Source: Branchiostoma floridae (taxonomy: Eukaryota > Chordata > Leptocardii > Amphioxiformes > Branchiostomatidae). Taken from it: DNA of 64,000 bases. Positions 6,001 to 37,469 of this stretch are shown here, one piece after another. The stretch lies in contig NC_049990.1 in the NCBI RefSeq assembly GCF_000003815.2, positions 11,943,668 to 12,007,667 of the forward strand, given 5' to 3'. The translations under genes and the position numbers were made by a program. Within the stretch, counting starts at the first letter, position 1. Every line of letters starts with the position of its first letter. Below the pieces are notes generated by a model. That model saw only the letters and a list, made by a program, of their open reading frames with translations, made no database searches and had not been told where the DNA came from.

Positions 6001-8518
6001 TTACGGACTCTGTGTCACGTCCTGCATGGCCTTAGGTCAACGAACTTTACTGCACGGCAGAGGGGCACGCAAGGGTATAGATCGCAATTTCTTTCTACCA
6101 TTGTTATTAAAAAATCAAGTTCGTAGAGCCTGGCCATGGTGTTACCATCATGAAGATGAAGAGCGGCCCATAGCGATAACTGTATAGCAGCATCTCTTCT
6201 TTCTAAGCCAGAAGCATCAAGTTTAGGCACGCTTGATTTCACTGGCTGATAGATGGCAATTTTTATGTATTTCATAACATAATAACAGACTTAAAAGTTG
6301 TAGCCACAGTTTATTTCGCAATTATTCAAGATAAATGATCTCTCAATCCTATGTCAAATATAAAAAATTTTGACGTACTGATGTTGCATGAAAATCGGTT
6401 TATTGTATGCTCGATATCAGTAAAATCTAAATCTTCAGTCTGTAGGGATTTCTATTGACATACATATTTCATGATTAAAGATTGCCGAAGGACACTCTAG
6501 ATCTGTGCTCTCTGACGTTGACTTTGACTGATACAGTTTCCAGGCGTTATGTAAGCTCTCTCTCAGGGGAAGCAAGCGTGAACTTCGCACGCACGCAAGA
6601 AAATTATATATTGACTACCTTCTGCTAGTTTGTAAATTTGTAAACCAATACCACCAGCAAACGTGGCAGGCAGCTCATAAAATCCCTTGAGCACAGCTTT
6701 TCGAAAACATGTTAGGACTTAAAGATAGAATGAGGTCGCAAGGGATGACGTCTTAAACTTACAAACATGATGGCTCATATATCTGGTATTATAGACGAAC
6801 TCCTGGAAGCAATTTTAACTAACAGTTCACGTATTGCGTGGATTTGACTAAGAGGTGATAATGGACACACGAAACTGATTGGTTTTAAAGGGTGTAGATT
6901 TTCACTGAGAATTATGTAAGTCAAACCATTTGTAGAAAGCGCAATGCGACCACTATGGATCAATCTGTTTGAATATGCAGCTTGTACAATAGCACAAACC
7001 TGGTGTGTTACGCCATGAGGCGGTTTCCAGCGTATACAATACTTATAGATACAGACCTATGCGCTGGTAAGGTAAGGTAAGAGTCATTGCATTGGATGGT
7101 TGTCTATTAGATTCAATTAAACTTTAGCCATGCGTGTCCTTTGTAGAATGTTGACGGAACTTTGAACGTGCTCAAGGACAAGGTCCTTCAACGTTGGTGG
7201 CAATGACTCTCCAACAGCACTTTCTGCAGACATTCGATTAGCCGTTGGAGTTTGAATGATTGGTTTTGGCAATGGTGTTGGACAATGACGGAGACGCTGC
7301 AGTTCTATCGATCCATGATAGCCTGGGATTAGATTTCCACCAGACTGGTCATCTGTCATCACTTCAAACGTCTGTGGACTGGAAAGGGACATTCCGGTTG
7401 CAATCTCAGGGATGTGTTTGGTACATTTCTTTACTGATGGTTGATGCTTTATTCATCGTGCAGCACGGTAGTGTAGTTGGAATGTAGGGACTTCATGGAG
7501 GGTCTTGTTTGTTTTTTTCCTTTGTCACAAAGCAGCGCAGATTAAAATTTTTTTTTAACTTTTCGAAGATGTGATTCTGATAAAATAATTATTATCATTA
7601 GTATTGTGTACGAAACGAATTATAGTGTTCCAAGAGTTATATTTTGTTATAGGCAGCAAAGAAAGACTCGACTTGCTAGTATATGCCCCAAATGTGATGC
7701 TACTTTATAAAGCGTAAATTAGACTGTTCGAAATGTGAAAACGTAGTATCAGGATACAGGCAAACCAATGAATAGATAGACTAAATAAATGTGAAAGTGT
7801 GACATTTGGGATCCTCTAGTAATACACTGTTACGGGTCATCGCACTACTTAATTGCCTCGACTGTAGTATCAGGAAACACAAATACTGTTCTTCGTCTTC
7901 GTCTGTTAAGTCCTACTGATAGCATCCGTCCAAACAGTTCTTTTCATCCCCATGCTACAGTCTAGGCAGTGTATGGGGAAGTGCGAAGCTATTCTCACAT
8001 CGCTTTGAAGATAACACGTCGGTATTGACTAGAATTACTGCAGCCATAAGTTAATAGGGGGCGTATCAGTATTCACCCTTACATTGAAAATGGGTGAGCG
8101 GTTTATTCAGACTTATCTAAAAAAAAGGGAACATCCCCCGTCCTTAAAATTGCTACCGGAAAAGCCATAACCATTTAATTTTTTTTCTAGATTTAATTGT
8201 GACCTAAAATTTTGGTATGTTCCAACAATTTGAATTGACTTTCTTGATCCAAATTGATCAAATGTTACATGAAATTAGTTGTTAGTTATTTCCCTTTTGA
8301 TTTTTTCCACAGATTTTCTACATTCGACTCCGACACTGAACGTGGTTCCATCTCTTCTAATTTGCCTTGCCTCCGTGTTTGAAGAAATCTATTCAACGAA
8401 GCCCAACATCACTTCTGACGTGTTGTACGTCCCTCTGGAAGCATAGCCCAGGTGCTGGACAGCCTACCCAATATCGCTGTATCGAACGGATTTTCCCTAC
8501 GCTATTATTAAATCCAAG
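1..8518. other. Intergenic region upstream of FSP1-A, no gene recognised
   Basis: AT-rich sequence with stop codons throughout. Short open frames exist (4392-4706 minus, 104 codons; 6015-6275 minus; 7117-7392 minus, 91 codons), but none shows a family motif, a convincing splice context or a paralogue elsewhere in the window. The only clear structure is the 71-bp tandem palindromic repeat at 5199-5340. Distal control elements of FSP1-A or part of an unseen neighbour could lie here; the sequence does not decide it. Confidence 0.5.
5199..5340. repeat. Two 71-bp tandem units, each containing a palindrome
   Basis: Two adjacent units begin at 5199 and 5270 with CTAGTAAAATAATGTG and differ at only a few bases. 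Each contains an inverted repeat: AATAATGTG(T/A)TAGT, then a short loop, then ACTAACACATTATT. The palindromic core suggests a small hairpin-forming or MITE-derived unit that was duplicated in tandem. Confidence 0.75.
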
Positions 8519-8655
8519 ATGGCTGCCGCAGCCTCGCCGGCGGTGATAGCGCGTATTTTGAAGAGGAAGGAGCAAGAAAAGAAACAAAAGCAGCACCAAC
8601 ACCACCATCATCACCATCGTCACAGCAAGCGACGGGGAAGTCACCAAGGGTCCAA
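8519..8655 (+). CDS. FSP1-A alternative first coding exon 1a (His/Lys-rich)
   Basis: ATG at 8519 opens 45 codons plus two bases, ending at the donor TCCAA|gtaagttt (phase 2). The start context is AAGATGGCTGCC, a YY1-like element often found at animal transcription starts. The peptide begins MAAAASPAVIARILKRKEQE, continues with a Lys/Gln stretch and a run of six histidines (HQHHHHHHRH), and ends Arg/Lys/Gly-rich. Phase 2 matches the acceptor at 27426, giving Asn at the junction. It could instead be the first exon of another transcript, but the shared phase with 1b and 1c and the lack of any other downstream plus-strand gene support this assignment. Confidence 0.6.
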
Positions 8656-11600
8656 GTAAGTTTAAACTGTAAACGTTCCTTACATGCTGTTGTTAGAGTA
8701 GGACAAGTACCACATTCAAATATCGGATTGCCAGGTATTCATGCCTCAGCTAACGTTACCTGCATTGTCGGGAATGATTTGTTGGCAAAACGTGAAATTG
8801 TGCAAAGCGAAACGCTTACTATAACAATGCTGTTTGTTATTGCACGAAACGATGTCATGTCGCATTAGTATCACGTCTATTCTTGATCGTGCAAAACTCA
8901 CTGAGTGTGAAATGACTATTTACATAACATTGAATCACGAAGGGAAAAGATGTTCTAAATTCCTACACACGAGAGAAGGAAAACATCGGCAACCAAAAAC
9001 ATTAGAAACCTTCTTTCAATATAAAAGAGATGGTAATCAGAAATGTAGATTATTCCCGCTGTGAGTAAGCCGAATTAGGCCTGCATACTTAAACTCATTC
9101 TAACGAACGTTTTATCAGAGGAGTCGTCTATTTTTAGACATGGTATAAAGTGGATTTGCCACAGTTTATAGTATCAACATCTTCCTAAAGAAGTGCATTG
9201 CAATTGGTAAAGAATAATGTGTTGGCCCAGAACGAAAGGAAGGCTCCTTTTCTTGAGGCTGTATCGACAAATAATTACTGTACATCTTACTCTTTGCAAA
9301 CGGAAGAATTATCTATTTTTAAGCATGTATAACGTAGATTCGCCACAGTTTACAGTATCATCATCTTCTAGAAGAAGTCCAATCGTAAAGAATGTGTTAG
9401 TCATAATGAAAGGATGACTCTTTTTCTTTAGGCTGTATCGACAAATGGTTACTGTACATCTCAGCTTTTTGTACACGGCGGCTATACCTCTCCCGGCAAA
9501 ACCTTTTTAGGAATTCCCTGGACCATCCAAAGTATACTCTGGGGAATAGAAGCCCATTATGTATTAATGCGAAATATCCAAGAGAATTGTGACGTAGTGT
9601 GAGATAAGTACTTGTGCAGAGAGAGAGAAAGAGGACATCATCTGCCGTCAGAAGTTTGTAATGATTTTTAGAGATAAGGTTCACTTCGAAAATCCAATTT
9701 TAAATTCTATATGTATTACATGAATAAATAAATTGTTGGGGACGTTTGCTACGTGGTTGCATGTAAAGTAACAATGAAACCACTACGTTGATTGAATAGA
9801 CTGCAGTGAAGGGCTTTATCTCTTAAAGACCACACACTCTGGCCTGGTATTTTTCAAATTCTATAGGGGTGACTGACCTACAATCAAAGAGGCATGCTGT
9901 GAAATAGATTGCATCGTTTTCGTTTTTAAAGTAAAACTCATTACATCGACATTTTCCATATTATTGATATATTCAGATATTATATCCTCTTACTTAACCT
10001 GATTTTAGAATATTGAAGATCGTTATGGAAAGACGTCTATCAAAAAAATAATCGACATTTTCCATATTATCAATATATTCAGATATTATGTCCTCTTACT
10101 TAACTTGATTTTAGAACATTAAAGATCGTTATGGAAAGACGTCTATCAATAATAATCGATTTATATCTAAAAAAAGTAGTGTAGAAGGCACCATTACTTT
10201 CTGATTCAGGAAGTGGAATCGATTGTAACGAAATCATGGGACTAGACATCTTCAAGGTCTGATGAATATTTAAGGTTCATCACGTAAGTAGTGGTTAATT
10301 GCCATAAAAAGTACTGAAGTACTCACGGACCTACCTCATTTATCTTCGTGACGAAAATCAATTCAGTACATGATGTGATGCACAGTAAACATATACATTT
10401 TGATTTGAAATGCATATTCTATTAACGTATGTTTGGTAATAGGCATCTAGTGAAAGGACTTTTCATCACAAAATATCATCTTTGCAAACGATATATTTCT
10501 AAATTTTCAAATGTTCACAAAGTGATATTGCGTTTATGCACTGGGAATGCCACACTTATAATATTCGAAACGAAATCTTGTTAAAAAATTCTAGCAATTG
10601 TTGAAGAGGTTTATCAGTCGCATATGAATACAGTTACTCCGAATTTTTTAAAACCAGATTCTAGAAAATTACGAAAAAAAACAACAATAGATATGTTGAT
10701 ATGACATTTAAACAGATGAAACGGTACCTTGCCTGCAGAATTACTTTGTCTAAGTCTACGAACAATAACAATTATTCAGCTTTAGAATCCAGTTGACTGG
10801 TGTTCAACTACGGCTTCCCTTTTATTTGACTTTGTTGAAAATTGGAACCCTTCTGAATAACATCACTGAGGTCATGTCCCAAAATCCCCTTCAAAAGACG
10901 CTAAATTATTCTCCGGAAGTGCCAGCGCTCTCGCAAATCTCATCACAATCTATTTCTAGAGCCCCCCTCACTCGTCCTCCTGTTTACAAGCTGCAAATAA
11001 CAACTCATCTTCAAACCATTGGGGCGTGAACTCTTGGGAAATTTGTCTGCAAGATTAATCATCGAAAGAGATAAGAAGGGCAACTCCTTAATCACAACGG
11101 AAGCATCGTGGACCTCCAAATGTTATTAGGACAGGGACTAGATAGTTGGGATTGCATCATTTGTCAAGATGAGCATATCCTGCCCGGGGGTTCCTTTCAA
11201 TAATGCTATTTCATCCAGGAAAAACGTAGATATGCCGCTGAAATCACCATTCTACATCGATGGTTCAACTAGCTCTATGATCTCTTCACTTCCGGCAATG
11301 TCAATGCGCGTGTATTGTGTTCTATTCTTCTATTCAATTAAAGTAGGGGGAAATTATTGCATCCTTACAAAATCGATAAGGAAAGGAATTAGTGCGGATG
11401 GATATGAATTGAAGGGACTATTTGAACCAATACACAGGAGAAGGCAATAGTTGGGGACTTAGTCGTATCTTTTATAGACATACACATTGTTTCGTTGAAA
11501 CAAAGAATTGAAACTAAGGCAATAAATTGCATTGCAAGTACATGAGGCCATATGGTTCCCAATAGCAATATATACAGGCATATATACAGTATGACACTGT

Positions 11601-14600
11601 GACAATTGATGGCAATGTAGTTCTCTATCAGTTATTTGATGCCGCTCATTCTTTCCTTAGCTTCGGTGTAATTTCTCTCTATACGAAAATTAAGCCCTAC
11701 GTCACATTTCCTACCCATGGAAAGTTTGTGTCATCGTCAATATTTGAAATATACACAAGGCGAGCTTTTGGGTTCTTTTTTGTCCGTTTTATGTTTTTCT
11801 TTATATTGTACTTTTCGTTCCCGAAACTGACCGGTATTGTATTGCCCGGTCGGGCCCCTTTGTGGAAAACGTCCTTACAGCTAGGGCCTGCAGCAGTCAT
11901 TGTACAAAACACCGCTGTTTTCGTTAATTAGTTTCCAACAAGTAATTAGGAGAAGACACCGTAAACCTTTGGGAAATTAGTCTTACAAGTTTTATCTGAC
12001 CAGTTTTGTCAACATTTAGCACCAGTGCCTACCACAGTGTCCCTGTGAGGACGAAGAGTTCAACTCTGTAACGAATGCGTGAAATCAAGCTAAACAATCT
12101 TCCTCTCCAGAGACACTTACAAAATTCAAGGCTATAAAAGAATTCTATCAACTTGCAGTAGTAGCTTAGCTGATGACTGTCGTTATTCTTACAGCCCGTT
12201 GAAATCTTATGTTCTTTTACCCTTCTATAACTACCCTTTTATGGCTTTATTATTTGTTGTCTTTCTAGTTAACATTTCCCCTGAAGCTAAGATTCCTCAA
12301 AGCTCGTGCCTGGAACAGTTGGCAGTTATCTGAAATGTGCACTGCAGCTTGTTTTCGTCTGATATAGAAAAGGCATTATTTTCTCCCGAACATCTGTGCC
12401 CAATATGCATCGGAATTGTGAAGGACGTACAACAGCCTGGGGAATACGGACAGCTTCGGGATATAATCGTCGGGGCTGTTTTGTGGGAATTCACCTTTTG
12501 ACCTTTTTGCGATTCATCATTTGCAATTGGTTCTTCCTTAATCCTTAAATGCTTTGACAACAAGATGACACATGTGGACCTTAATCAGTAACGAACGAAA
12601 GATGCTATACATGTGTTCAGGGACGTAAATATCACAGGAAATGATTGACATGGTTAAGATGTATAAGATACACAGATTACTTGCCTGCGGCTCTTACATG
12701 CATGTGCCTCCTTCGGTGGCTTCTGGTCCGGTGATGTTAACTTTTTTGGTGTTGGGGAGCTTATTCATAATTCTCAACATAAGCTAAGGTTCCTTTATGC
12801 TGGGAGAGGGAGTTTTGTCGCACCCTTTCCCAGCATAGAGAACCTTACAGTTTGCAAATCAGCACCCCCCCCCCCCTCATAGAACGCCACTCTATAGCCC
12901 TGTGAAGGACGCCGCACTGTAATATTCTAATCTATAAGCAGATCCTATTGTAGCATAAGATAGTATCAACAGCTGGCAGAGGAGTGAAGCCGGCCTAGGA
13001 GTGTGTATGCTCTGACTCCCTTTGGCCGGCTTTCAACTCAACTTTGATACTATCTTATGGCACCGTATACGTAGGATCTGCTTGGAGATTGAATATATTC
13101 TACTCAGGCAAAATGTCAAGCTCCCCGCAGCTTGTGACAAATTTGCAACCTTCACTGACTAATGGGAAATCATGTCATGTTTATTGCATACTCGTTCACT
13201 AACGAAAACCACAACGTATGGAAAAAACGAATACTCAGGCTGCCTACGAGATTGTAGTAGCCTAACCTGAAAAAAATCAAGCTTTTTTAGAAGCCCCCCT
13301 AATGGCCCAATCTCTGCCAGACGATTTACAATGGCTATAGGATAAGCAGAATAGCTTGCCAGGAGTTTACTCACCAAAGGGTTCATTTTCCCGTACAACG
13401 TTCCTGAGGCCCCCCTTAGCCTTAATAATCCAACGTCACAGTTCCGGATATCCCACCTGGGGCCCGGTCGGGCTGTTTCTTATACTCAAATAATGCCCTC
13501 CACTATTTTCTTTACGTCTTGAGTAGTCTGGTGTCTTTTATATCATACTTTGCCTTCCTTAAAGCTTGGAAATGTGATGAAGGCCTTAGGGGGACTAACT
13601 GCCCTTGCCAAATATTCCCTTTTTTGCCGAATTTTACAATTATTACCCATGTAGAACGGCATACAATCAGCTCCTGACAGTGATAGAACGTGTAGTACAG
13701 GCTAGTAGGGGTCTGGATGGGAGAATGAAACTCTGTATGTCGCCCAATTGCCGTTACGTACTAATAGATTCTATTCCACATCTTGGAGGAAGTTGTTGCA
13801 CAATTGTGTAGTCTGCTCTGTAGTCCTTTCATTCACATTCAAATAGGGTAAAAGTGTAATTTCTACCTGTGCGTCAAGCTGTGAGTCGAAATCGTCTAAA
13901 GCAGATCCAATTACCACGCTATACAACATCAGAATGGAAAGCTGGAAGTTTCTATCGCATACAAAATCGTAATTTACCATTACAGTATGTGCATATGAAT
14001 CTACCCAATCTATCATGTGTTAACAAGCTTGTGAAAATTCACTCAGGTTCTAATGTCGTTTTTAATAGGTTCGTGACTTGAATTTACTTTAGCTTGAAGC
14101 CTCTTTAATCAGATATACCATTATACAAGTAACAAATGTCGATAATGTCACCTTAGAAGTAGATCACATATCGTTCATGTATAGCACTCATACTGAGTGA
14201 TCGTTTTCTTTAGGGTCGGGAATGAGCATATCCAAAAATATGATATTATGCAATATTTAATGTGCTATTACGTCAAGCGTGGAAGTGCATGTCTCAGAGT
14301 TGATGGAATATCTGAGCGCTTTAATGGCATTAATCAAAATATCTATATATAGGCAAAGCATACAAGACAAATCTTTGAAAAGTTGGCTATATTCAATGAA
14401 TGAAGGCCTAGAGGGTATATATTGTCTTAGACTTCACATTTAGCATCAAATGCTTTCTATAGGCTATTCAAACGGGACGTCACGGCTGCCATGCTGATTG
14501 GTTGGACCTAGAAATTGGTTTACATTATCGCAATGTAATAATATTTTCATGTGAAAGAAGTTACAGACACGAAATCTGCCTGGCAACTTCTGCATTTAAC

Positions 14601-17600
14601 CATCCATCATGGCGGCGATACCTACGTCATAGTCACGTGAGTGTAAACTGCCATTGGATTAGGTAGCTGCGCCTGCCCATGCATTAGCCTTAGCGCCCAA
14701 AGTATTATGGTAATGGTCTTTTGAAATATCACAGTTGAGCTTGCTTGACACGTTAGCCATGGTGTGGGTGTACATGTACTCTATGATATTAAGTCGCAAT
14801 GATCCACACGATAGCCTTTTATACTAGTCTTGACATTATGTTTCAACGTTAACATTCACCAAAAGGTGTGGCCAGGCACAATCCATGTACATATATGGTT
14901 CAATACGTATCTAATTGTGGTAAACTACAAATATGAATTAACAAAACCAGTTTAAGTCATTGGCAAGAAGTCATAAGCAAAGAATTCATAACATCCAATT
15001 ATTTATGCTAAGTAATAAAGCTCACAAGAGGTGATCATTATCGTCATATGATAGGCTGATGAATAATGATGAATTTGATATTTGCTTTGTTACTTCACAA
15101 TACATGGTAAGACAAACCAGAAACATACTAACCCAACAAATACGGACAATAAGTTGGAAAAGAAAACATACTAGATCTATTTCACGGATATCAGATATGA
15201 TTATGTATTTTATTCGTCTATGGACATGCTCCCATTGCCAGCTATTAATGCACGAAATTGAAACCAGTGGCCTTGAATACGATTGTCCATGCTTGGTCAC
15301 CAAACCAATCACCCAGCACTCATAGCTTAATGGTTCCAATTACTTTGTTAGGAACCCACGGTTCTTATCAACCCTTTTATCTTATCTTCCGTGTAGACCC
15401 ATCATTGTGAAGTAGAGCATCTCCAAGAAAATTCGATTCGGATGTGTTTAGATACAAGATACTAGTATCATTGTACGAAATGAAAAGAGCTATATAATTG
15501 CCTAGAGCTTATCATGAGCGTTTATTTGCAAAATCATGCCAGAAGGCAAATAGTATGCGCAGTCTCGAAATAAGAGTAAAGTCATCTCATGCACGCAAAG
15601 ATTCAAATAAGAAGATTGCGATTGTTTTAGTTTTCTTATATAACATCAAAACCTATGGGTAGTTGAAACTGTTCTGAGTGAAAATCTCAGATGAGCAGGT
15701 AAACAGGCACTTGCCGGCGGGTTCGGCAACCTAGAAATGTGGAGATCTAGACAACAGTTATTATACAGTAACATTTATGTAAACTCAAGGGTTTCCTTCA
15801 GCACATTTGATAGGGATAGAGCTCTCAGCATGAGTGACTCCCAATTTCTGGGACAATTTTCCGAATGAATACTCTCGTTCTCAGATCTAGCGGCGGAACA
15901 CTTATCCCCTAAATTGGATATTTCTGTCCTCTGCATGCGATAATTGCGGTACATCTTGGATGAAATTGCCATCAAAGATTGGATATCTCACCACCTCGCC
16001 TGCCACGATAACTTTACCCTTGTGACCTTGGGGTAGATTACCTTTTAGAGTTCAATCAGCATCGTGAAGAGTTCAATACCATGTACAAACAAGGTTGTGT
16101 TGTATCGACATTGGGTAGACTAGTAGTTATCAAGCGAAGGAGAAACTTTGATTGCCCTGAGCAATGTAATTGTAGATTGCTTGCAATATACACTTGTTCA
16201 GCAGCTGATGGAGTAGTGTAAAACACCCCATACACACCCATTAACGTTAACACCATACGCACACAGACACACAGACAGACACACAGGCACGCACAGAGAC
16301 ACAGACAGGCAGACAGACAGACACACACACAAACACACACGCAAACGCGCGCGCGTGCGCTTTAATGTTAATACTAAGAGATCGTTTGCCGAAGAAAGGA
16401 AACTTTATACGTTGCATGATGCGACACTAAAAGTAAGCTTGATTTAATCAACTATAGTAGTAGGTCGATACAAAAATAAAGGTATAAAGACAAAAAAGAT
16501 GAAGCATAAAATAGTTTCCAGAGGAGATTTAGAAATACTTCTATGGAGGATGTATATTGAGGAATGAGGATGTATGAAAAATACAAAAATTACAGAGGAG
16601 AAATAGCCTTTCATGTAAAAGTTAAACTTAATCTAGTCCCTTTCGTCACCAGATAGAGCATAGGGCGACGCCTAGCTATCTGCATTTCAAAAGCCCTTGG
16701 GCTACACAACTTTATCATAAAGAAAAAGCACGGGGGGGGGGGGGGGAGGTGTGGCTTCTACTGATTGTGGTTTGTGTTCAACCATAATGTTTCCCAAATG
16801 CTGAGTGCTAAAGCAGTATGCATCATTTTCAACATCTTTGGTTGACTCAGCCGGGATCATAGTTACCATTGCGTTTTTTTTAAATCTTTCCCGCCTTTGA
16901 TTTGTAATTCAACAGAAAACAATAACTTATATTAATTCACCCTCACGGTAGCAACTTCATTAGACTTCAAAACTGAAATAATTACTTTGAAACTCTGTCT
17001 GTGACGAATACCATATGGCAGAAATTTGTTAATTTTTCGCCGATATATGCAGCGGTGCGTCCGACTTGCGCCTAACTTTGACGGGTTTGAAGTCTTGTTT
17101 CCAGTAACAGATGGTACCAAAACGGACATGAACGAATGAACCAATACTTTTACAAATCTAACACAAACTTTGTTTCTCAAATAATGAAGTCTATGAATAG
17201 GAAGGATCAAAAACAGTTTCTTAATTTAGTAAATCTTTTAATCTGTTGTGATCAGCTGAGCAGATCAAACTTAACACTAATCTCTATCCGGGATTAACAT
17301 TCTGATTGAAACAATCCCGCAGCGTCTTATCCAAGTTAAGAACACTCTGTCTTACTTTAATATTCCTATAATAAGACCTTTCCGAAAATCACCTTTGATT
17401 CATTTGTATTTTGAAACCCAATGAGCTGTATTTAAATAGAGAGCAACTACGTACTTTCAAAATCAGACATTCACCAAACATTCACTCTAACTACAAACTA
17501 GTAATGTGTAATTTGTCATTCTGTGATTACCTATGTAATGACTGTCTCTACATGACTGTGTGCTGAGTTTTGAAAGCAGTACTAGTGTGTTACGAATTTT

Positions 17601-20600
17601 GTACTCTAACCACTACATCATAGCTGCGGTAACATACAAAAAGCAAAATGTCAATGATTTACCTATCTAATGCCTATTCTCGGAACTCAATGCGACAGGA
17701 TATTCCTGTTCAATAGACCTAGACATAGAGGGTAATCACTAACAGTCGCCAATGGACGTCTTTTCTTGGAAAAAGGCCGTCAGTTAAAATGTAAATGAAA
17801 GACCGTGAACCATTAGACAGAGAGACGTCGACATTTGACTTCCTACGGAATGAAAACGTTTCTGGAATACGTTGGGGTTTTCTTGTATATACTTCATGGA
17901 TTGCAGATCTTGGTGATATAATCAATGTATTCAGGAGACCACGTAGAGACAGCTCTTCACCGTAAATTCAATTTCAGCGAGATCGCTTCCTTCATGATAG
18001 AATACTCTTCATAATGGCGTCAGCATGTTGCTTTGAAATCCGATTATGGAGTCTGATACTCTGCATAAGACGCCTAGACTGAGGCATTTGTCAGAATCAT
18101 AATGCACATATCGTAATGTCTTCTGTCGTACTGAAATCTTTTATATCCAGGTCATACTCTAAAGGTGGTACTTAGGGGACCGGTGCGGCACTGCGGTGTT
18201 CGTTCACTGCAGCAATGCGTTACTTTAGCCGATATTTTTGTAATTTAAATATTACGTAATACGTAAAAGTGGTACTTAGAAATCAACAAAATACACAAAA
18301 CGTAAGATTATTCATTCTTTATCTCTGAAATTCGCTGAGTAGTCTTTCGAACCCCGCAGTGCCGCACCGGTGCCCGAACTGCAACCACCTAAACGGTACA
18401 ATTCTTTTCTGCAAGTTTTCTGGTCGAGGTCAATGTATACTCGTTTGGTTGTTTTGCTTAACTGGCTACTTTTTGATAGTATCCACAAATACAAGGTATC
18501 TAAAAGATAATTTCACGGAAAAAAATCAATTACAAAACCAGGATATATCATTACGCAATTGTGGTGGCTCAAAATGTACTTATAAACTAATGTTACAGTC
18601 ATATTACATTTACCTAATAGATTTGACGTTTGCCGCGTGATACCAGATGATATCTCCACGGTACTGTATAATCTCAACTGCCTCTTTAAAAGGATTATCA
18701 AAATTTATGACCTGCCATTGTCACTGCCACATGTGTCAAAGTAGCTGCAATATCATTCTACCCTAGAGGATACCGGAGTAATGATTTTTCGGCCTTGGCA
18801 ATGGCTCCCATTGGAGTTACATGTAAGTTATGCATCACTGTAATTTGTAAGCCGTTACGTAGGATTACGCCTTAACCAATGAGAATTTCCTGCGAATCTC
18901 TTAAGCTTCGTTACGTTATCCAATAATCAATGATCAGGTAGGTGATTACCCTAACAATGTTCCTGCCAAGTCTTGTTACAGACACATTTTTCACAGGAGA
19001 TTTCAGGAAACTCAATGTTACTCCGAGGAAATCAAGTACGTGATGGAAGACCAACAGTATTGGGTTCATTCTTAAGTTTGCACGTAACTTGCATCTGAAG
19101 GATGTAGGATACCATGGATACTTATTATTCTGATCACGAAGTGCAGCCTTGTCTTCTTCGTGCATCTTTATTCAAGGATTAAAACCCCGTCTGGACCGGC
19201 TACAGCTTTAGATTGGTACAGGAGCAGAGCACCATCATTTTCTGGTCCGCTACTTTGAAATGCCCGTGAAGAACATATAGCCTTACCGTTGGGTAGCTTT
19301 TGATTATTCTACGGCTCCAAAGGCTTTCCTGGCGAGACTAGAGCAGTCGTAATGTATTTATTATGGTGTCTCAATTGGGAATACAACAATCCTTATCTTC
19401 ATAATGTAGCCCCCGTCTATCCTTAATGGACGATTTTGCTACAAAGAGATTTAATCCCCCTGGAAGCTACGGTTGTTTTTCAAGCGGTGGGGCGTTTCAC
19501 TTTATTTATCGGGGTGACAGTTCCTGCTTCCTTTTATCTGTGAAAGGCTTCTAATGACTCCTCGCGGCGTGTGTGTACCATCAGCGGTCTCCATCTGCGC
19601 CACCAGGCTTGCCGTACTGGATGTTGTGGACCGTACGGTGGATGATGTACTGTTGCACCCCTCCGTAAGGTAGTAGTCTTTTCCTCGCGCTGACTCACTG
19701 ACAACATGGCGTATGCTTATCTGTCGGGAGCATCGACAATATACGACAATGGCCCGTGGTCTTTCCGAGGGGGGTACACTTTTCCGGGAAGGGGATACTA
19801 CCACCGTGGGAGGGGCAGACCGTTCATGATGAGCAGGAGGCCTCCATTCCATTCCAGGAGACGTAAACAGTAAGTAGCGGAGATCGCAGGCGACTGTTTT
19901 GTGAAATCACGTCGGAGCTCTGCTTCATGCAAAGCGTAATCGTACCATGCTGTTATCATCTAATTCTACTAAAGGTCAGTGATGGTTGTGTCAAGGTCAT
20001 ATTCCTAATGAACAGCAGTTTGCCATCTTGTTTCCGACTGCTTCAACAGTTTGCCCATTCCCAGACCTTTGGATATAAATTATTCAATGTCAAAGTACTC
20101 ATATCCCCCGAAGATACCAGCCATCATTTAATTCACCTCAATTTACTCCCTATTCATAGGCTTTTACGTTGTTTGTCATGACTTTCCCCTAACGGGCTTT
20201 CTGAAGTAATAAGGAATTATAGTAATCATTGCATATTTACATGCTGCCATTAGTATCAGATCAATGCCTTAATGTGCATATAACAAAAAAAGAAGATTGC
20301 TTCAAAAATATGAGTTATAAGAGATAAATAGTTTCATTGTGTGGGTCTGAAATGAAGATAAATGAGGTTTTCAGGATGGCCAGTGTGTGAAATAAGACAG
20401 AAGCACCAGATATTGACAACACGCACGCATCCACGCTGATAATAGGATGTTAAGAGGTAATACCGTCATTATGAAGGCAGTAATCCACCATACGTTACAG
20501 CCAGGCTTGATGACCCCACTGGCCGGCTTTAGTAGTCTTCCGCCTTAAGCCTGGGCTTTGTTGTGAATAATTCAGCAGATAAAGAAGAGTTTTACAATAC

Positions 20601-23600
20601 ATAGGGGTGAGGAAATCTTATTTCTGTTTCACTCGTAATGCTAAAGAATGACTCTACGTTTGATCGTAACTCCTTAGAAATTGATATGAACATAGATAAA
20701 GTACTGAATTTTACGGTCTCTATTACTTTTTCATATCTAGCAAAAAGTTACAACCATAAATGCATAGGGCAAAGATAAGTGTCCCCTAACGTTTATAACA
20801 TAGTAAAAAAAGTTTACCATCAATATGTCATAAATGGTTACGTATTCAATAACATATTATAGCTTTAGCCTACTTTTGGGAAAAAATACCAGTGTAGAAG
20901 GTTGTATGTAATGTTAAAGTGTATGAAGACGAATATTTTATGTTGAGATCAGTTTGAAGACAAATATTTTGTGTTGAGATTAGTTTGAAGACAAATATTT
21001 TGTGTTAAAATTAGCATTACACAATTCTACTTCGTCTCTGCATCATGAATTGATACAAAACAACATAAATATGCTAACTACAATAGAGTCATGCATTGGA
21101 ATCTGGACATCCCCTATTATATGACACCTGATTGTGCGTGTATTAACATTGTATATGCTGCACACGGACACGTCAAAATGGGTCAGGAAACTATCCTGCC
21201 CACGCGTCATGGATCAACCCATTCTCCGGGGACAGCGGCCATTCAAATTGCAATTAACGATGGACACCATTTCCTCTATGCAGATCCTTTCGCTCGTTGG
21301 GAAAACCATGCATCCCCGCCGAGTGTCGTTAACGGGACATCGCGCCTACAAAATTGAAAGCGTTCAGGTTTTTACCATGACTAATGTTGAAAGAACGCGC
21401 TTTTAGATCGCGGCCAGTCTTTGAAAGCTGATCCGTGAAGAAACTTTTAAGTCTCTCCACGTACGTGTCAGACGTCAGAGCTAGCCGTTTGATGGATCAC
21501 CAACGGTGGGCATTACTATCATTGTATGATCCGTGGTCTGCGATATTAGCTTAGGCAGCCCAGATAGATGGACGGGTAAATAATGTATAACAGGTAGCTT
21601 CTTTCAATTGTAGGACATTGTCCGAGGAAGATGCAACAGGTTGCTATTTCCCTGGAAATGGGTTTTGGACCGCAGAGTTTTGTGTTTGACATGGACCTAC
21701 AAAACCAAAACAGGTTAAAACAATACATATTGTATGATAGGGCATCATTTTATGGTAATCGTTCTGCATTTGATGTAAAGCACTATTTGGATACTTTCAT
21801 CTTGGAGATATTTCTTGGACGGAAAATGTCTTTACGAAATGTAAGCTCTTTGTAGTAGAATTTTTTTGTTTCGGTTCGGGATTAGGTCAAAACAAATGAA
21901 GACTGCATGTTGTCAGTAGTTGCTGAAATTGTTTGTCATGAACAAAAATTGAGTATCTCTAGGCTTAATTCACATTCAATATAATATTCTTACAGTATAC
22001 TCTTAACTCTTGTAGCAATTCAAAATTGGTTTGGCAAACACATTAGAGTCATTCAAACTACTTCTGCTGGTCTCCAAACAGATCTACAAGTGGCAAAAAC
22101 AGTATCCAAGTAGTCATGGCCCCAACAGTACCCCGATGGCCAGTTCGATACTGTTTGGGCCCTTTGGATACTACCTTGCCACCGGTAGATCTCCTTGGAG
22201 ATTGACTTAATGCACTCTTCTGTACAATATTTAGGCATTGATGATCTCTTATACAAGTAAGATGGTCCCAGTTGCCCCCCCCCCTCCCCCAACAACAACA
22301 ACTACGTGCATATCAGCGAATCAAAGAGGCCACTAAGAGCAAAGGTTTTGTTCAACCTTTGAAGCTGTTGTAAGAACACATCCTCTGGGAAGCTTAAGGT
22401 TTCTACACATACACATACACTGTAATGTTTTGCCAGCTATGTCTGTGTGATCACTAGAGGGTATATACATAAGATGTTTGCATAGCTTGAGCTGTGGTAG
22501 CCTGGATATGGAAATCAAAACCTTTGCATTGTGTTTGCCAAGTTATTGCAGTACATGTATAGAATTCGTTCCGATAATTCATGACTTCAAGAAAGAAACT
22601 TAAATGGTGGGTAGCGAAGGCGGGCAGAATGTATTTCGGAAATAGCACATTTACGCATGATTAAAAGCAAGAAAATTGACTCAACTCTTTGCATGATTAT
22701 GTGGGTATACATTGCGGTAAAAGCTTTTGATATACAATTAGCAGTTACTGTGATAGCTACAGCAGCAATTATTATCGAATTATATATTATTTTCCATCAC
22801 GAAATTGCCCTCAAAGATAATTTGCCTTATCTTTAAAATAGCTCTTAAATTTCTGGTTACTATTATGCTTGTAATACATCATGTATAAAGATGGATAGAT
22901 GGATTAATAACTAGTTAACTGTAAATAAATGTGCAAGGTAACAGTTAATACAGCAAGTGGGTAGACTTTGGAAAATCGCCCTCCTAACGGTTACCGTACG
23001 TAATCCATTACCTTACGTAAGTCTATACTTCACCCACGTATATGATGGATTAGTAACTATAAATGAATGTACAAGGTAACATGTACAGTTACTCAAGCAA
23101 TTGCATAACAGTTACCGGTAACATAATGCATTACCTGGATGTCTATACTTCACCCACGTATGCATGTATGTATAGTTAGATAGATAGATATCATAGATAG
23201 ATAGTCAGATAGATGGATAGATAGGTAGAAAACTAGACAGATAACTAGATAGATGGATAGGTAGATAGATAGATATATCTAGATACTATAGATAGATAGA
23301 TAGTAAACTAAATAGATATTAGATAGGTAGATAGATATAAGGAAGATCTAGATAGATAGCTAGCTATATATATATATCTATATATATATATATAGATAGA
23401 TAACTAGATAGATAGATAGATCATCAGCTGGAGTGTTACCAAGAAAAGTAGAGTTATCCACCCGTCATGTGTATCTTGTATCAGAAATCTATTGGAACAT
23501 ATCTTGGCAGTTGGAGCCATTCAGGTGACTCAACCAAAACCAAAAAAATCATAATTGCTGTCGAACCATATGTGCCTGAAATGAGTGAAAGCAATTTACC

Positions 23601-26600
23601 TATACCTTAGTGGGTCGTTAAATTACTCATATCAGAGTTACGTCACACCTAAAACATATTTGTACTGGGATTGGTTTTCATAACTACACAAAGCTGTTGC
23701 GTCGTTTCAAAACCTCTGTCACAGTCCGATGACTTCATGTATTTGAGTTACAGCTGGCAATTGGGAAGGTCTGACTTGCAGGAGTGACAGGTATAAAGGA
23801 AATATAGGTTAGAGTTGGTAGAACTATTCATTGATTAGATGTATTTGAGTTACAGCTGGTAAGTGGGAAGATGACTTGCAGGAGTGGCAGGTATAAAGGA
23901 AATATAGGTCAGAGTTGGTAGAACTAGTCGTTGATTAGATGTATTTGAATTACAGCTGGTAAGTGGGAAGATGACTTGCAGGAGTGACAGGTATAGAGGA
24001 AATATAGGTCAGAGTTGGCAGAACTAGTCGTTGATTAGATGTATTTGAGTTACAGCTGGTAAGTGAGAAGATGACCGCAAAGGTCTGACTTGCAGGAGTG
24101 ACAGGTATAGAGAAAATATAGGTTAGAGTTGATAGAACTAGTGGTTGATTAGACATGACATTCCAGGTCATGGAAGAGGATACTAATTTTAAGGGAGATA
24201 TTGATTTTGTCTGTGTTTTGGCTGTCATGTATGCTCGTCACGTTCACCGTAGAATGATAGGCAATGATCTATGTACTCACGAAATATCAATAAAACGTGA
24301 TTTGCATAATCGATGAACTACATTTAAGCAAGAGTTACGAGAAACTCTACATTGACTTTTGTTTGACGGAGTAGGGAAAACTTCGAGGTTTTGTTGAAAA
24401 TACTTTCTTATTTTCTCTATCGTGTATTTAAGACATATCTCTGTTGACTTAATGACTACTGGTATGATAGTGCTATCTTGTCCATTTATAACATTGCCAT
24501 AGCTACGTCGTGCAAAATATTATTCATTGTACCTTTAAGTTTTATTATTCTGAAATTTTGTGTTAAATGAAGCAGCTGAGGCTTGTAATTAAATACGTGA
24601 TCCCGTAGAGATCATTCTTTTAGTCCCTACTGGGTTAATGTTAGATATGAAGGGTAAAAAGTTTTATAAAAGAGAGGGACCCTTATTGTTATTGCATTCA
24701 AATATCTAGTCCATCATTTCGTTATACTTACATTTGCTAAGACGATATTTGTACATGAAGGTATCGACAGCATGTTTGATACCATGCTGTCAATATCATT
24801 TGTTTATTTGTGTGTGTCTGTGTGTGTGTTTCTGTGTCTGTGTGTGCTTGTGTGTGTCTGTGTGTGTCTGTGTGTGTGTGTCTGTGTGTGTTAGTGGACT
24901 GCATAACTCGAAAAGCTGAGGATGTATCCTTATCATGATATTTGGGAGGTGACTAGGGGTCAGGAAAATGGAGGCCAAATTCAATAATGGATCCCCTAGC
25001 GGCTTTCCAATGTACGGCAGCAAAAACGAGTTTTCGTATTTCGCGTACTGGCATGCTGTGGTCATCATATTAGTGGTAGATGGCTCTTCTTCTCTATGCA
25101 ATTGGACAAACTTCTCTAGAAAGTCGTTTGTTTTTGCGAAACATATCCATTTGCAATTTGGCAATGCAATTTCAATGATTGAATCAAAGGTTTGCCAATT
25201 GTTACCGTTTCAGTTGAAATCCAGTGATACCTTAATAATTGATGGTCATTACTGTTTTATTAATAAAGTATATACTAATAAGCATATCAATTAGGAGCGT
25301 AGAGAGCGTACAAAGTCAATAAGAATGAGATGAAACATTAGTACTTACGTACGTCTGAGTATAAGTTCTTGACCTAACATTTTATAATGCAGATAATTGA
25401 CATTTCTAGTGCAAAGCTAATGCTGTTATACACTGCAGCTCTCTACATTACAAAATAGCCACGCTTCGTTCACTTTAGATAATCTAATTTGATGATTCTC
25501 CGGCTTTTTTCCTCTCACAATGATCCCCAGTGGTTTCCTGACATAGATTGTACCCGAGCTAGAGATACTATCATTTGTCTTAGAAATAGACAGATTATGG
25601 CGTATTCCTATCTATCTAGTCCGTACAATGGTTTTGGGAGGGGCCGGAGTCAGCTCCCGTCGTGGGCGCACGGCCGGGGCCCGGGCAGGGGCCGGGGGCA
25701 GTGGTCACCCGTGCCGAGGCGCAGGCCTCCAGGACTCCGATACGTGTCGTGAGTAGAAAGACGCTACGGAGTATCATCCTGCTTTTGTACAGAGATTTTT
25801 TACCTGATACTGTCAATGCTTTGCCTGTAGGTCGCTGCAGCGACCTTATTGGAGTACATGCGGATTCAACGCTTACCATCTATGCTATTGCTGCAGCACT
25901 TAGATCTACCGATTGTATCAGATATCAACAGTTTCACTCATTGTTGCAGCATTTTTTAGCAATATTAGCAAAAGCCGTGAATTTTGCAATACTTACTTGA
26001 CCGTTTACTACATTTTTTTGCCCAAGAAATATGATCTTTCTAGTGTTTTCAATGCACTATCTATACTTCTAGATATAGTTTCAAGTCGGCTGTTAGCGCC
26101 AATGCTGCATACTAACAACAAACCCGTACGCTAGCGCTTTGGGCAATCTATCGGCATTGTATGAATGATTCGTCACACTCGATTTTGGAACAATACGATT
26201 TGATTGGCATGTGATCCGCTTATCTGGGACAATGTTATCAGTAATAGTTGTTTGATAGGCAGTATACCAAGCCGGCTCGACATTTTGACGAATCGCAATG
26301 GGTGTCAAGAAATCAAGATAACCGCAGCTGCATTCACGTAGGTTAATTTGTCTGAACCCAAGACACTTGTTGTCACCATCTATCAAGATTAAAACGCCGA
26401 CTGAAGGGCAGACGAGAGCGGGTGTTTGGCGGGGTTTTGAGCATTTGTGTCGTCCATGGGTCAAACCAACCAATCACATAGAATAGAGATCATGGATCAT
26501 ATTTGGCTCATCTTCCACTATCGGCACTCAGGCTATCACGAAGAGTTTTGATCTAAATTGAACATTAAGAATTCGTTCAACTAAGTGTGTGTGTGGTTTC

Positions 26601-29600
26601 AGATAACAACTCCTCTTTGAATGTAAAATGGCTGTTTGCTTGACGAACGTGAACGTATAGAACTAGGGAATTCAACTGTCTGTTTGAATAAATATAGTCT
26701 GCTGGCACGCTATGGAGGAAGAACATTGTAGAAAGTCAGTACATGTACCATGTCACAATAGGTCAATGCCATTTACTGACATTTACCATGATGGTAATAT
26801 CACCGATATTTTGGTGGGTGCGTATAGTGTAGTGCTTGACTTATTCAACCCCCGTAGTACACCATTAATTTATTGATATATAAATGGATCACCTAATACC
26901 AGGCTTGGATTAGCGACATTTTAATAGATTAAGGAAGTGTTTTGCTTTATATGCACAGGGGACGCGTCGTGTGGGAAAGTTAAACACGTCTTGCACTTCT
27001 CATGTACTTTAAAGACTATCAGGTCTAATACTATAGTAGCAGTACATGTTAACTAATTACAGAATTTCAAAGCAATTCCTCTTCGCTAGCTAGTGCACCT
27101 GATCTTCCGTGGTTTCACTTTATAATCTGTAAGGATGGGAGAATATCTTCGGCCATATAAAAATGCCACAATTTCTGATGCTGACATGAGAGGTAGCCTT
27201 TAATAAATCGACTTAAACAAGCAAGAGTAAGAGAGCTGCATGTTTGATCTAGAAGGTTCAATTATATATTAGAATAGAGCATGAAACAAAATAATAACAC
27301 TTCATGATACCTCCTCAAACGATCAACCGATTCTTGGTCATAGATAGTCAGATTAGTCAGATAGTCAAAGGCTATGGTACTGCCCTTTCTGTCATACATC
27401 TGTCTTGCATGTTTCATTCGCAAAGCCGGACACCTTCTCCTGCGACAAGTCCTAAGGGGAGCCCATCGACAAGTCCAACGAGTCATTTCCCCGTCAGTCC
27501 TCGGCGCGGCTCGCACCCATCGCCGAGAATCAGTCCCAAACATCCCCGGCCCAGACGTGGTTCGTCGCCCAACCCCGTGGGCAGTGCGTCCCTCCCCAGC
27601 CTGCCGAGTTCGCACACAAACAATCTGCTCACGCCGTCGCAGTCTCATTCTCCGGCCGGCAGCCCTGTCGAGCAACATGACAGAACCATCACTGATCTGA
27701 CCTTTGTCTTCGGCAAGAATGGGTATCTCAAAGCATCCTGTCATTCCAAAAGCATGCTGTTTGCTACCACTGCATGGAATCGCCGCTTTTGGGCTTCAAT
27801 GGCTGCATGGTGTTGTGTTGTATTGTAGCTTAAGCTTGATTGTTCGTACGCGCTATACTCATCTGCCTGCAAAGTTGTCAGTAGATTTAAAGTGGTATCT
27901 CACTATACTTGGGGCACTTTTGCGGCACTGAGGAGTTCGAAAGGTTACACAACGACTGTCAGAGAAAAAGAACAAATTTTCTTACTTTTTTTTTGTATAA
28001 TATGTTGTCTTCTAAGTCATACTTTAACGTATTACGAAATATCTTAACTATGAAAAAGTTAGCGAAAATAACATAACAGTGCTGCAGTGAATGAACCCCG
28101 CAGTGCCACATCGGTGCCCCACGTGCAGTGAGAGACCACATTTAGGCATCAAAGAATTACTCTCAGACTTGTACAGTACTTGAACATGTTGAAGATCTAA
28201 CTTCGAGTATCTGAATGTTTCTATTTTAATGTTCGCACACACAGTAGTGCACACCACAAGGGAAGTAACCACAGTCGAGACGCCTCACCAAAGGTCTCTC
28301 CAGGCGCCTCGCCAAAGTCTTCACCCAAGAAGAGTCACGCGAAGAGTAACGGGTCGGAGGAGCAGGCTAACGCCCACGTTGTCATAGTCGGTGGAGGGTA
28401 GGCCAAAGCTATATTTTAATATTTAGGCCACAGCTAGTAGATTTTGTACATGACATCATCAACAGACTCCAAATTCAATGTTAGAGGGCGAAGAAAACAA
28501 GATGGATAAAAAAGGTGCCATAATTTTCACAATAGACACCATACGTTTGGAGGTACAATTGTAGTGACAAAGGATCACCATTAGCCAACAAGTGCTTTAT
28601 TTCTGTATTCAAGAAGTGCACAAAGTGACACTTGTTTAGAAGACTAGTATCATTTGCAAAATTGGAAACTATACACTCAAGGCTTCCAGACAGGTGTCAC
28701 TTTTACAGCTACCAAAGAAGTTTCACCCCTAAAACTACGTATACAGTCATGGCTACCTCATTAGTTCTACAAGTACACTGAAGGTTACCTCATGACATAT
28801 TTTCCCCTTTTGGTATTTTCTCGTCGTGTTGACTAACTCCGGAGGGGAAAATGTCCTATATTTCTTTTTCAAAATCAGGAGAAATTTAATGGGCGCGCTG
28901 ATGTCATTTATATAAAATCTACTTGCTGTGGCTTTGTAATAATATCGTAGATCGGTAACTTTGAGAAAATATCATGTTTCTTAACACGTACAACTACGAT
29001 AAAGCCAAAAATCAATATCAGTGATGTACTTTCAATCTACATGTTTATAGACCACTAACTTTCTTTCCTTCCTGCTCTAAAGGTACGCAGGTATAGCGAT
29101 CGCACGGAAATTACAAGGCAAAATCAACTTTACTCTAATCGACCCAAAGGAATGCTTTCACCACCACATCGGCGCACTGAGGTCTGCCGTTAGAACAGGT
29201 AATTGTGCATCTCTGCACCCGCCGTTGCCTTTCTCTGCTATAGCATGATATAAAAGGCAATTTATGCATCCGAGAGACTCTATGAAAAGCTACTCAAACA
29301 ACTGGATACGTTTTGTGCGCCTTATATATTTACTCACTTGCATGAGTAACTTTGGTAGATTCTATACAGTATCCGATTGCCTTGATTATGTCAAACCTTC
29401 ATCGACCTGCATTCTAGATAGCTCATTGAGATGAAAATTAATTGAATCACCAAGCAGCAGAATGACGTTATCTTGAAAAACGAGGCGCTTGATCTCTGAG
29501 AAGAAGTTAGAATACATGTTGTGGATGATGATATTTGGCTATCTCTATCACCGATGTTGAATGATATTATAACGCTTATACTTCATATTCCAGATTTTGC

Positions 29601-32600
29601 CAAGAAGACCTTCATTCCGTATGACGCTACGTTCGGGAAGCGGTTTAAACAAGGCCGTGTGAAGGACGTGAACACGTCTGACAGGACTATCATCCTGGAA
29701 ACAGGTAACAACTAGCATGACGTTATCTGCGCCTTATCATGATTCAAATATACTTTGTTCAACATGAATTTCAATTAGACATCTATTATGATGTTGCACA
29801 TATTGACTCTAAGCTTTGACATGATGGGAAAACTTATGTTAGAAAACCAACAAAGAACTGAACATGAATACCAATTTATGATGCAAAAAGTAACACGTAA
29901 CGTATTTTAGTATGTCCATATAATGCGGACCCAATGGGATAGAATAATCTATATAAATAGATGATATCATCTATTATTTAAAGTGGTTGGCGTCTAACAG
30001 CAGATGTCAATTATCATCATCAGGTTGCTTTTGTGCAGCCAGCCACACGTCTAACCTAGCCCATACATTATATTCAATTCTTGTATAGGCCATGATTTTA
30101 TAATATGGATAACATCCTTGCGCGCATCAATTTTCGGCCGTTTCCAAAATAAGATAAAAAGTTTTCAACCCTACTCTAAATTGTCCAAAATCAAAATAAG
30201 CTAACATATGCGGTGGATCGCAAAGATATATACCGGAAAAACGTATACTAATGTCATAGAACATTACAAGGCCAAAGAAGATGATGCTATATTCTGTGCG
30301 TCCAGTCATTTGTTCAACCTTCCTGACCACTTTGATTTCATAATGAAGTCAGCTTCTTTGTCAAACGTTTCTTTTTATTCGCAAGCTCGCATTGATTTTT
30401 GGATTCCCAGAGGATGTCATTCATATTTAATCAAATCAACATGGCGAACGGTTATGTACGGATAACATTGTTCTTGAGAACTCCCCTCAAAACCATTTTC
30501 TGCAATATTTGAAGCTATGAGACAGCGGGATCATTCTGAAATCATTCTTGTTTATCCGCCGTTAGGAGAGACCATAAGTTACACCCATCTGGTTATCGCT
30601 ACCGGATGTACGGGTCCGTTTCCTGGACGAGTCGATGACACCATCACGACTGATGAGGCCATCAGCAGGTACAACAATCTGGCGGAACAGGTACGATTAC
30701 AGACCTCCACAGTGTCTATCACCATCACATGTCAGGCCCGCCGCTTGCATAATTATATTAGCTACAGTTCTCTGGCGTACCGGCCTGTGATTCGTCCTTC
30801 TCGCGTTTTTTAAGCCACTCGCCACCAGCCAGTCACATCGTCGCCTACGGTCAAGAGGCAACATGATTGGCTGGTAACTTCCCATCCAATCATAGGAGAG
30901 AGAATATCAGATTGGTTGAAGGCGTGCCTGCGCTAAAGTAGTTGGAAGGACGGATCGCACACCGATACGCCAGAGCCGTTACTTGGCATAATTAAGCAGT
31001 GGGTCCTACATGAGAGTATGATCATATAAGGTATTATTTGGTATAGCCTGAGTGCTTTCTTCATAGACTGTGATTAGTGTTGACTCCGAAGGCTTTTTTA
31101 CAGTTCAGCTGTGAAACTCACTGTATTCGGAAATGAAGAATAAGCCATGCTTTATAATAGTTTTGCATTAACATAATTAGTCATTCATTGTCTATTATAT
31201 TGATGATATCTAAATTTTTAATCTATGTTATAAGGACAAGTATTCAGAAAATGGTTCTTAATAGTAATACAACTTCATTGAAATTGACATCAGATTTCAT
31301 AGTCTGGCTTACCGCAAGCAATTTATTTGCTAGCGGGATAGGGTACAGTCGTAAACTATACAGTAATATGTAAAGAAAACATAAAGAGGACATAGAATCG
31401 AGTGGTATATGCTTAATTTAGAGTCAGTTATGACGCGACAGTTTTCCCACTTTTTTTTCTAGATTGAGACTGCTGACAAAATAGTGATAGTTGGCGGAGG
31501 AGTAGCGGGAATAGAACTTACGGGAGAAATTCTGTCCGCCCACAAAAATAAGAACGTCACACTGATCCACGCTCACCAGCATCTCATCAACGACGACGTT
31601 CTACCGGGCATGCGCACAAAGCTACACGAGAAACTAGCTAGATATGGCGTCACGTTTATTCTAGGTACGTTAGCAAGAGTTTACTCTCTGCCTATAATTA
31701 TCTCCATGAAAATATAGGCATTGTTTTCGGTGCGTGCGTGTGTTTGTGTGTGTGTGTGTGTGTGTACTAGTGTTTCCACATATGTTTTTGTGATCAGCAA
31801 AATTTAAAACCTGTGATGATGATATTTGTAATAATATTATGTAGCTACTTGTTTTAGAAAGACAAAGGTCCAAGTTGGTTTCGACTTCTTTAAACATACT
31901 TTTAGTAAAAAATTTTGTGGGATCTTTTTGTAGTGAACTTTTCAGTATAATAACCTATTGCATACCTTGAAAGATACTAATAAGTCATTTACATGTTCTT
32001 ACAGATGAAAGAGTAAAGAATCTTGAGGAAGTTGCTACAAATGTCTCGAAGCCCACAACAGTCAAAACAGACGCCGGGACTGAAGTCAGTGCAGACCTGG
32101 TTATACGGTGTACGGGCGTCAAACCCAACACGGCAGTATTCACTAACAACTTAGGTGAGAAGGATGTAGTAATCACTTAATATACCTTTCTATTAGTAAG
32201 CAACTGTTTGATTTTTTTTTGCTGTGTAGCAGTGACATTACGTACCATAAGGTGATATCTCACTGCACTTGCACCGTGCGGCACTGCGGGGTTCGTTCAC
32301 TGCGTCACTGTGGCGTTATTTTCGCCGATTTTTTTATAATCTAGATATTGTGTAATACGTAATAGTATGACTTAGGAGACAACAAAATGCACAAAATGTA
32401 AGAAAATTCGTTCTTTATCTCTGAAATTCGTTGAGTAATCTTTCGAACCCCGCAGTGCCGCACCGGTACCCCAGGTGCAGTGAGATACCACCTTTACCAT
32501 ACCAGTATATACATAACAGTTTCTATCCGTCTTTGTTTGGTTCATGCATTATAGCTACTCTATACTTGTTTACACCGCACGGCAAGTACATTTTTCATAG

Positions 32601-36442: not shown

Positions 36443-37429
36443 CTATTGACTCTTTATTTTGGCAGAACTCTGACTGTAACAGACGCCATACATGAACGAA
36501 CAGCTGTACCACACGGTCCCCAGTACAGCTGTACAGACAGACAACAGGAACACAGCCACATCCAGCAGGTAGTACTGGTACCACGGCAGCTCCACGGTAN
36601 NNNNNNNNNNNNNNNNNNNNNNNNNNNNNNNNNNNNNNNNNNNNNNNNNNNNNNNNNNNNNNNNNNNNNNNNNNNNNNNNNNNNNNNNNNNNNNNNNNNA
36701 TCTATAAGCAAAGACACCTAGAGCTGCAGTGCAATGTAAACTAAGCAGAATTGCCCTGAGGAAGATGACGGACGGTCAAAAAAACTTCGGTTGAATAAGA
36801 TATTTGGTTGTGCTCAAAGGGTTTTGCTATTTAGTGATATTCCAACCTTATGAAACTATTCATTCGTGGCATTGATAGATCGATCATTTCAACCTTTGAC
36901 TTTTGAGAAAGGCTGGATTTGGTAGTCAAGCATTTCATTTCAAGTGTTATCAGTTTCAATACCTGTTGTTGGTGAGGACATGAATAACTGCCTGATATAA
37001 CTTGTCGGCGGTGACCGTGCCGAAGTCCAACTTCACCCCCAGTCCCCTGGCCACGACCCGGGCGGCGTTAGCGGGCTGGTCCCCGTACAGCGGCAGACAG
37101 ACCACGGGTACGCCGTGGTACAGGGCCTCGCACAAGCCATTATAACCAGCGTGAGTGACGAAGGCTCGTGTCTTACGGTGACCTAGGGAAAATTAATTTC
37201 GGTAAGATGGAGGCAAAGGTAAATGTACATATATTCGTGTTAGTGTGTGATTGCGTTTCTCTCTCTCTCTCTCTGTATGTGTGTGTGTGTGTGTGTACGT
37301 CTCTCTCTCTCTCAGTGCAGTGTTGGTCAAATGAGTATATAACAAACTCATGAATTTTGCCAAAAAGTAGGTGTATTTTCATACAAATACGTATTACTAT
37401 CTTTTGTTTCTATTTCTAAATATGACTAT

Positions 37430-37469
<40 letters not shown>

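Follow-up and report, generated by a model that had tools for sequence, protein, structure and literature searches.

Four genes resembling FSP1 (AIFM2), here called A to D, lie within one window of the amphioxus Branchiostoma floridae genome, the window being the whole stretch of 64,000 nucleotides that was analysed (contig NC_049990.1, C12 in our numbering, positions 11943668-12007667). The genome examined comprises 513.4 Mb in 431 contigs, and all 23 matches of the gene B protein to it fall inside the window. Genes A and B are on the plus strand, and genes C and D are on the minus strand. FSP1 guards cells against ferroptosis. In vertebrates it carries an MGxxxS N-terminus and is myristoylated, as given in parts of PMC10643123. 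Gene A is probably an FSP1-family (AIFM2-like) paralogue that lacks MGxxxS and has three alternative first exons in a long 5′ region.

Candidate first exons of gene A

Three separate ATG exons, a (8519-8655, 137 nt), b (19706-19869, 164 nt) and c (25597-25748, 152 nt), lie on the plus strand ahead of a common exon at 27426. Each leaves phase 2, and the common exon opens in phase 2. The coordinates, phases and lengths had been proposed in an earlier annotation made from the DNA letters (the sequence-only reading) and were reproduced. Completed by nine shared exons, the resulting ten-exon frames of 1650 (a), 1677 (b) and 1665 nt (c) are open with one terminal stop each, and GT-AG is found at every modelled junction.

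All three ATGs have A at -3 and G at +4. Exon a runs from phase 0 to 2 and encodes MAAAASPAVIARILKRKEQEKKQKQHQHHHHHHRHSKRRGSHQGS; an in-frame stop lies 24 codons upstream with no in-frame ATG in between. It begins MAAAASPAVIARILKRKEQEKK, which we take to resemble the first exon of FGF11-14, a likeness that was given no weight. The exon a tail has a pI of 11.9, 9 His and 11 Lys/Arg, and its C-terminal end, KRRGSH, is like the RRGSH stretch in the common linker. Exon b encodes a Tyr- and RG-rich peptide (MAYAYLSG...RGRGR...RRRK; pI 11.5, 6 Tyr, 4 RG) and has an in-frame stop 4 codons upstream. Exon c encodes an RG-rich peptide (MAYSYLSS...GRGPGRGRG...RRRPP; pI 11.9, 4 Tyr, 4 RG), and a longer in-frame start at 25492 has poor context. 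Across the 64 kb, G+C content in 150-base windows peaks over exon c, and exon 2 is also high-ranked.

The donors of the three exons had been called good. This stands on the intron side (GTAAGT, GTAAGT and GTGAGT) and fails on the exon side, where position -1 is not G in any of the three. Position weight matrix (PWM) scores, from a generic metazoan donor matrix, are 5.35 for exon a (CAA/GTAAGT), 2.98 for exon b (ACA/GTAAGT) and 1.09 for exon c (GTC/GTGAGT). Against 3185 overlapping open stretches of non-coding DNA, a synonymous measure of codon bias ranks a, b and c above about 98%, 98% and 99.8%. No tail matched a Pfam family at the cut-off, with RCDG1 sub-threshold at 14.5 versus 27 bits; from their composition the tails are probably disordered.

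Exons b and c have in common MAY[A/S]YLS, RG repeats and RRPP. Their protein alignment scores 55 versus a shuffle mean of 31.5, and 0.2% of 2000 shuffles reach 55. At the DNA level 17 of the first 21 nt are identical (13/17 after ATGG, binomial P 3e-5), and three of the four mismatches within these 21 nt are at third codon positions. Across six frames of the window and the 20 kb upstream, MAYxYLS occurs at b and c only. A duplicated first exon is likely because b and c are alike.

The region 8001-27400 was shuffled 200 times with dinucleotides preserved, counting ATG exons that were 130-249 nt long, left phase 2, had start context (A/G at -3 and G at +4) and scored at least 1.08 at the donor. 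The shuffles averaged 0.145 such exons and never exceeded 3, a count reached in 0.5% of them; the real sequence has 3. A same-genome background of 22 stretches (215,416 bases, both strands, 430,832 strand-bases) was searched under six criteria and is conservative, since real genes were not removed from it. A GTRAGT donor with start context matched once in the 430,832 strand-bases. Under two GTRAGT-donor criteria 0.05 exons were expected and 3 were observed on the plus strand (P 1.5e-5 each), and under a criterion without start context 0.55 were expected and 5 observed (P 2.6e-4). Two further criteria gave expectations of 0.32 (P 0.004) and 0.64 (P 0.027), each with 3 observed on the plus strand. 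The minus strand of the region yielded none under all six, and a separate PWM criterion that ignored start context counted 5 on the plus strand and 1 on the minus. Throughout 1-28240 on the plus strand, only a, b and c combine a length of 60-319 nt, start context (A/G at -3 and G at +4) and a GTRAGT donor in phase 2.

Shared exons and the FSP1-like core

Common exon 2 (27426-27722, plus strand, 297 nt as modelled, phase 2-2) encodes a Ser/Pro-rich linker. Common exon 3 (28245-28397, plus strand, 153 nt, phase 2-2) encodes the end of this linker and the first strand of the FAD fold (HVVIVGG). The linker is basic, has 141 residues and 16 Ser/Thr-Pro sites, and is common to all three forms; 186-195 residues stand ahead of NAHVVIVGGG. 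Because exons 2 and 3 each run from phase 2 to phase 2, exon skipping and joins to 28245 stay in frame. The true set of gene A forms may differ from the three modelled.

The core continues on the plus strand through exons 4 (29083-29198), 5 (29594-29704) and 6 (30566-30690), of which 5 and 6 together make 236 nt, the same as exon 2 of gene B. Exon 7 (31463-31664) carries the NADH motif GGGVAGIE, and its 202 nt equal the 93 and 109 nt of two exons in genes B-D. Exon 8 (32005-32154) carries CTG, with the G244 equivalent. Exon 9 (32779-32979) carries IGEC, in which D285 is replaced by E. Exon 10 with the stop (33594-33751) carries KSKDLF, with the K355 and F360 equivalents.

The claim of a full-length core collinear with solved FSP1 was borne out. 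Residues 192-554 of form c match six FSP1 sequences of solved structure, with a best E of 1.3e-102 (9qrt), and the same residues align to 5-368 of 9ift, an FSP1 ancestor, at E 2.5e-102. The PF07992 match of gene A is at 4.9e-39. Bit scores to 9ift are 346.5 for A, 358.5 for B and 365.1 for D. The 363-residue core is open and without frameshift. In human numbering, D41, E156, E160, G244, C286, K355 and F360, itself a functional residue, are kept. Roles of D41, E156, E160, G244, C286 and K355 are described in parts of PMC10643123. The NADH motif GXGXXGXE is present as GGGVAGIE with E156, together with equivalents of E160 and K355. The GD motif for FAD (D285) reads GE in gene A and GD in B, C, D, human and the tetrapod ancestor, and E164 is replaced by A.

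None of the three predicted gene A starts is Met-Gly or fits the myristoylation motif MGXXXS, whereas the MGxGPS starts of all three paralogues (B, C and D) fit it. The replacement of the family Met-Gly start, as originally proposed, thus agrees with the gene models, and for this reason gene A is called an FSP1-family paralogue and not FSP1. For the predicted genes the key premise holds: no Met-Gly start is visible in one FSP1-like gene, and its three neighbours each have one.

An internal Met start of the core was rejected. The NADH motif lies at residues 324 (a), 333 (b) and 329 (c), ahead of the next Met after the first exon at 363 (a), 372 (b) and 368 (c). The modelled shared part therefore has no Met before the NADH motif, and an upstream start is needed. 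That the three exons belong to gene A, another claim of the sequence-only reading, is supported indirectly by this need, by the lack of Pfam matches and by the lack of a comparable exon upstream: the 20 kb before the window yielded, on the plus strand, no ATG exon as good. An origin of the first exons in another domain-bearing gene was rejected: a six-frame Pfam scan of 1-28100, blind to short exons of unknown families, gave nothing at E <= 0.05.

Gene A resembles vertebrate FSP1/AIFM2 in its collinear full-length core, NADH motif, E156, E160 and K355. It differs in candidate starts without Met-Gly, in the long extension before NAHVVIVGGG, in D285E and in E164A. Genes B-D have the same core family and later exons of matching length (150 and 201 nt), and unlike gene A they carry MGxGPS in the first coding exon and have no linker. 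Two introns of gene A, one interrupting the GGG of the FAD motif and one within the 236-239-nt exon of B-D, are absent from B-D; conversely, the intron between the 93- and 109-nt exons of B-D is absent from gene A.

Proposed alternative first exons and rival explanations

Alternative first exons on common exons are known from UGT1A, the clustered protocadherins and FGF11-14. As in these systems, gene A has several same-phase ATG exons able to feed one common acceptor, each joining it in frame. Unlike them, gene A encodes a flavoenzyme whose family start is a lipidation signal, and its separate promoters and splicing are predictions from the DNA. Alternative first exons are thus a known kind of architecture, and an FSP1-like gene so built would be a new form of it. 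Among the open-access literature no paper was found that pairs FSP1 with amphioxus, and no title on such an FSP1 architecture appears among the matches listed, which is not proof of unpublished status. Nor did any title on FSP1 isoforms turn up in the same literature for an alternative promoter of AIFM2. Parts of PMC5752451 report Branchiostoma belcheri AIFM2 as down after poly(I:C), with the copy not specified.

Each first exon would be spliced onto the common Ser/Pro-rich linker and then onto the full-length FSP1-like flavoprotein core. Most likely each first exon has its own promoter, so that three promoters would give three N-termini, and b and c would derive from duplication of one first exon. 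As FAD enzymes, the products would oxidise NAD(P)H and reduce quinones. Basic low-complexity tails, and not myristate, would hold them at acidic membrane surfaces, at RNA or in condensates, and the promoter chosen would decide the place and the time. The ordinary membrane job would be left to the three neighbouring MGxGPS genes. The nucleus, RNA granules and metal-rich sites, the destinations first suggested for the products, are speculative and come from the composition of the tails.

We offer only tentatively the broader idea that lipid anchoring was exchanged for three promoter-selected tails, with the core working off membranes or on different surfaces by cell. Under this exchange the two Tyr/RG-rich tails could join RNA-protein condensates; the third tail is His/Lys-rich. 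Condensation of human FSP1 needs disordered and low-complexity parts, according to parts of PMC10643123 and PMC10338336. If gene A is built as proposed, an anchor-free relative with its core kept, beside three copies carrying the anchor motif, would be a natural test of FSP1 away from membranes, and would also test whether other N-terminal tails can replace myristate.

Several results weigh against three alternative starts on an active FSP1-like enzyme. By the synonymous codon measure the own frame is best of three for b and c and not for a, and by the full codon measure another frame outscores the own frame in all three. Exon a shows no similarity to b and c (shuffle fractions 0.20 and 0.61). 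Shared sequence was sought upstream of b and c and none was found beyond chance; when the 800 bases around each are aligned as DNA, the score is 25, inside the shuffle range (maximum 31). The loosest background criterion gives P 0.18, with 1.46 exons expected and 3 observed on the plus strand, and all P values are optimistic because every threshold was set after the exons had been seen. The exon 2 donor at 27722 (TGG/gtatct) is poor, with a PWM score of -2.19, and further in-phase donors follow at 27809 (-1.94) and 27824 (-3.74), both open into exon 3; the 3′ end of exon 2 is uncertain for these reasons. Activity of gene A is not assured, because D285 is E and E164 is A. Lancelet gene models are also often wrong, as stated in parts of PMC4967905.

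It is unlikely that only one or two of a, b and c are true gene A starts and that the rest arose by chance or belong to an unannotated transcript not joining 27426. The loosest criterion, under which three candidates are not unusual, and the unrelatedness of exon a to b and c speak for this, as do candidates that look like false positives: a weaker GTRAGT place at 8852-9060, with two ATGs and no start context, and 7272-7483, which has start context and a donor of 1.24 and lies just outside the tested 8001-27400 region. Set against these are the A at -3, G at +4 and same-phase GTRAGT donor of all three exons, a combination like that found once in the whole background, and the resemblance of the exon a end to RRGSH of the linker. 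A start at an unseen exon, or at the ATGs at 27304 or 27409 just ahead of the common exon, would make the three exons leaders or irrelevant; with a Met-Gly exon missed by the scan, gene A would be an ordinary myristoylated FSP1. From either ATG the reading frame runs open through the linker, and the core is also reachable by skips to exon 3. However, each ATG is preceded by T at -3 and followed by A or T at +4, and this poor context makes an upstream start entering in phase 2 the likely reading. Reading back in frame from exon 3 to the preceding stop reveals no ATG (ORF 28201-28401), and searching 8001-29080 for first exons 9-199 nt long whose phase-2 donor scores at least 1 gave no hidden Met-Gly candidate. 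We regard such a start as improbable.

Gene A would, under a further alternative, be a decaying or inactive copy with a neutral N-terminal extension. The change of D285 to E in the GD motif, the change of E164 to A and an identity to its neighbours of only 41-45% point in that direction. Human FSP1 D285N is without FAD and inactive, and G2A, which loses myristoylation, abolishes ferroptosis suppression, as given in parts of PMC10643123 and PMC10338336. The unbroken core, the GT-AG junctions, a 9ift score near those of B and D and the acidic residue retained at 285 all argue the other way, and decay appears very improbable. Three alternative first exons on an FSP1-family paralogue remain the favoured reading.

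Neighbouring genes and other features

Paralogues B (41200-45216, plus strand, N-terminus MGGGPS), C (47246-50566, minus strand, MGSGPS) and D (58757-63497, minus strand, MGSGPS) each have 7 coding exons. Genes B, C and D share 61-85% identity among themselves; gene A, at 41-45% to these and 42% to human, is placed as an old branch because of this difference. Over 59 residues the first-exon proteins of C and D do not differ, and their cores are 85% identical, which suggests recent duplication or gene conversion. The last exon of gene B (45062-45216) departs from the family near the C-terminus, with KSKGMF versus human KSRDLF.

Between genes A and B lie a run of 100 N at 36600-36699 and a minus-strand UDP-glucuronosyltransferase gene at 37429-39557, two ORFs of which match PF00201 (1.6e-38 and 3.7e-28). 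Minus-strand ORFs in the 20 kb before the window (L021:1039-1341; L022) resemble what we take to be an SLC22-type organic ion transporter. Introns and spacers hold repeated copies, in either orientation, of an element around 'GCACTGCGG...GTTCA', at 18170-18217 and 28077-28124, and further copies were seen by eye at about 32240-32330 and 32430-32500.

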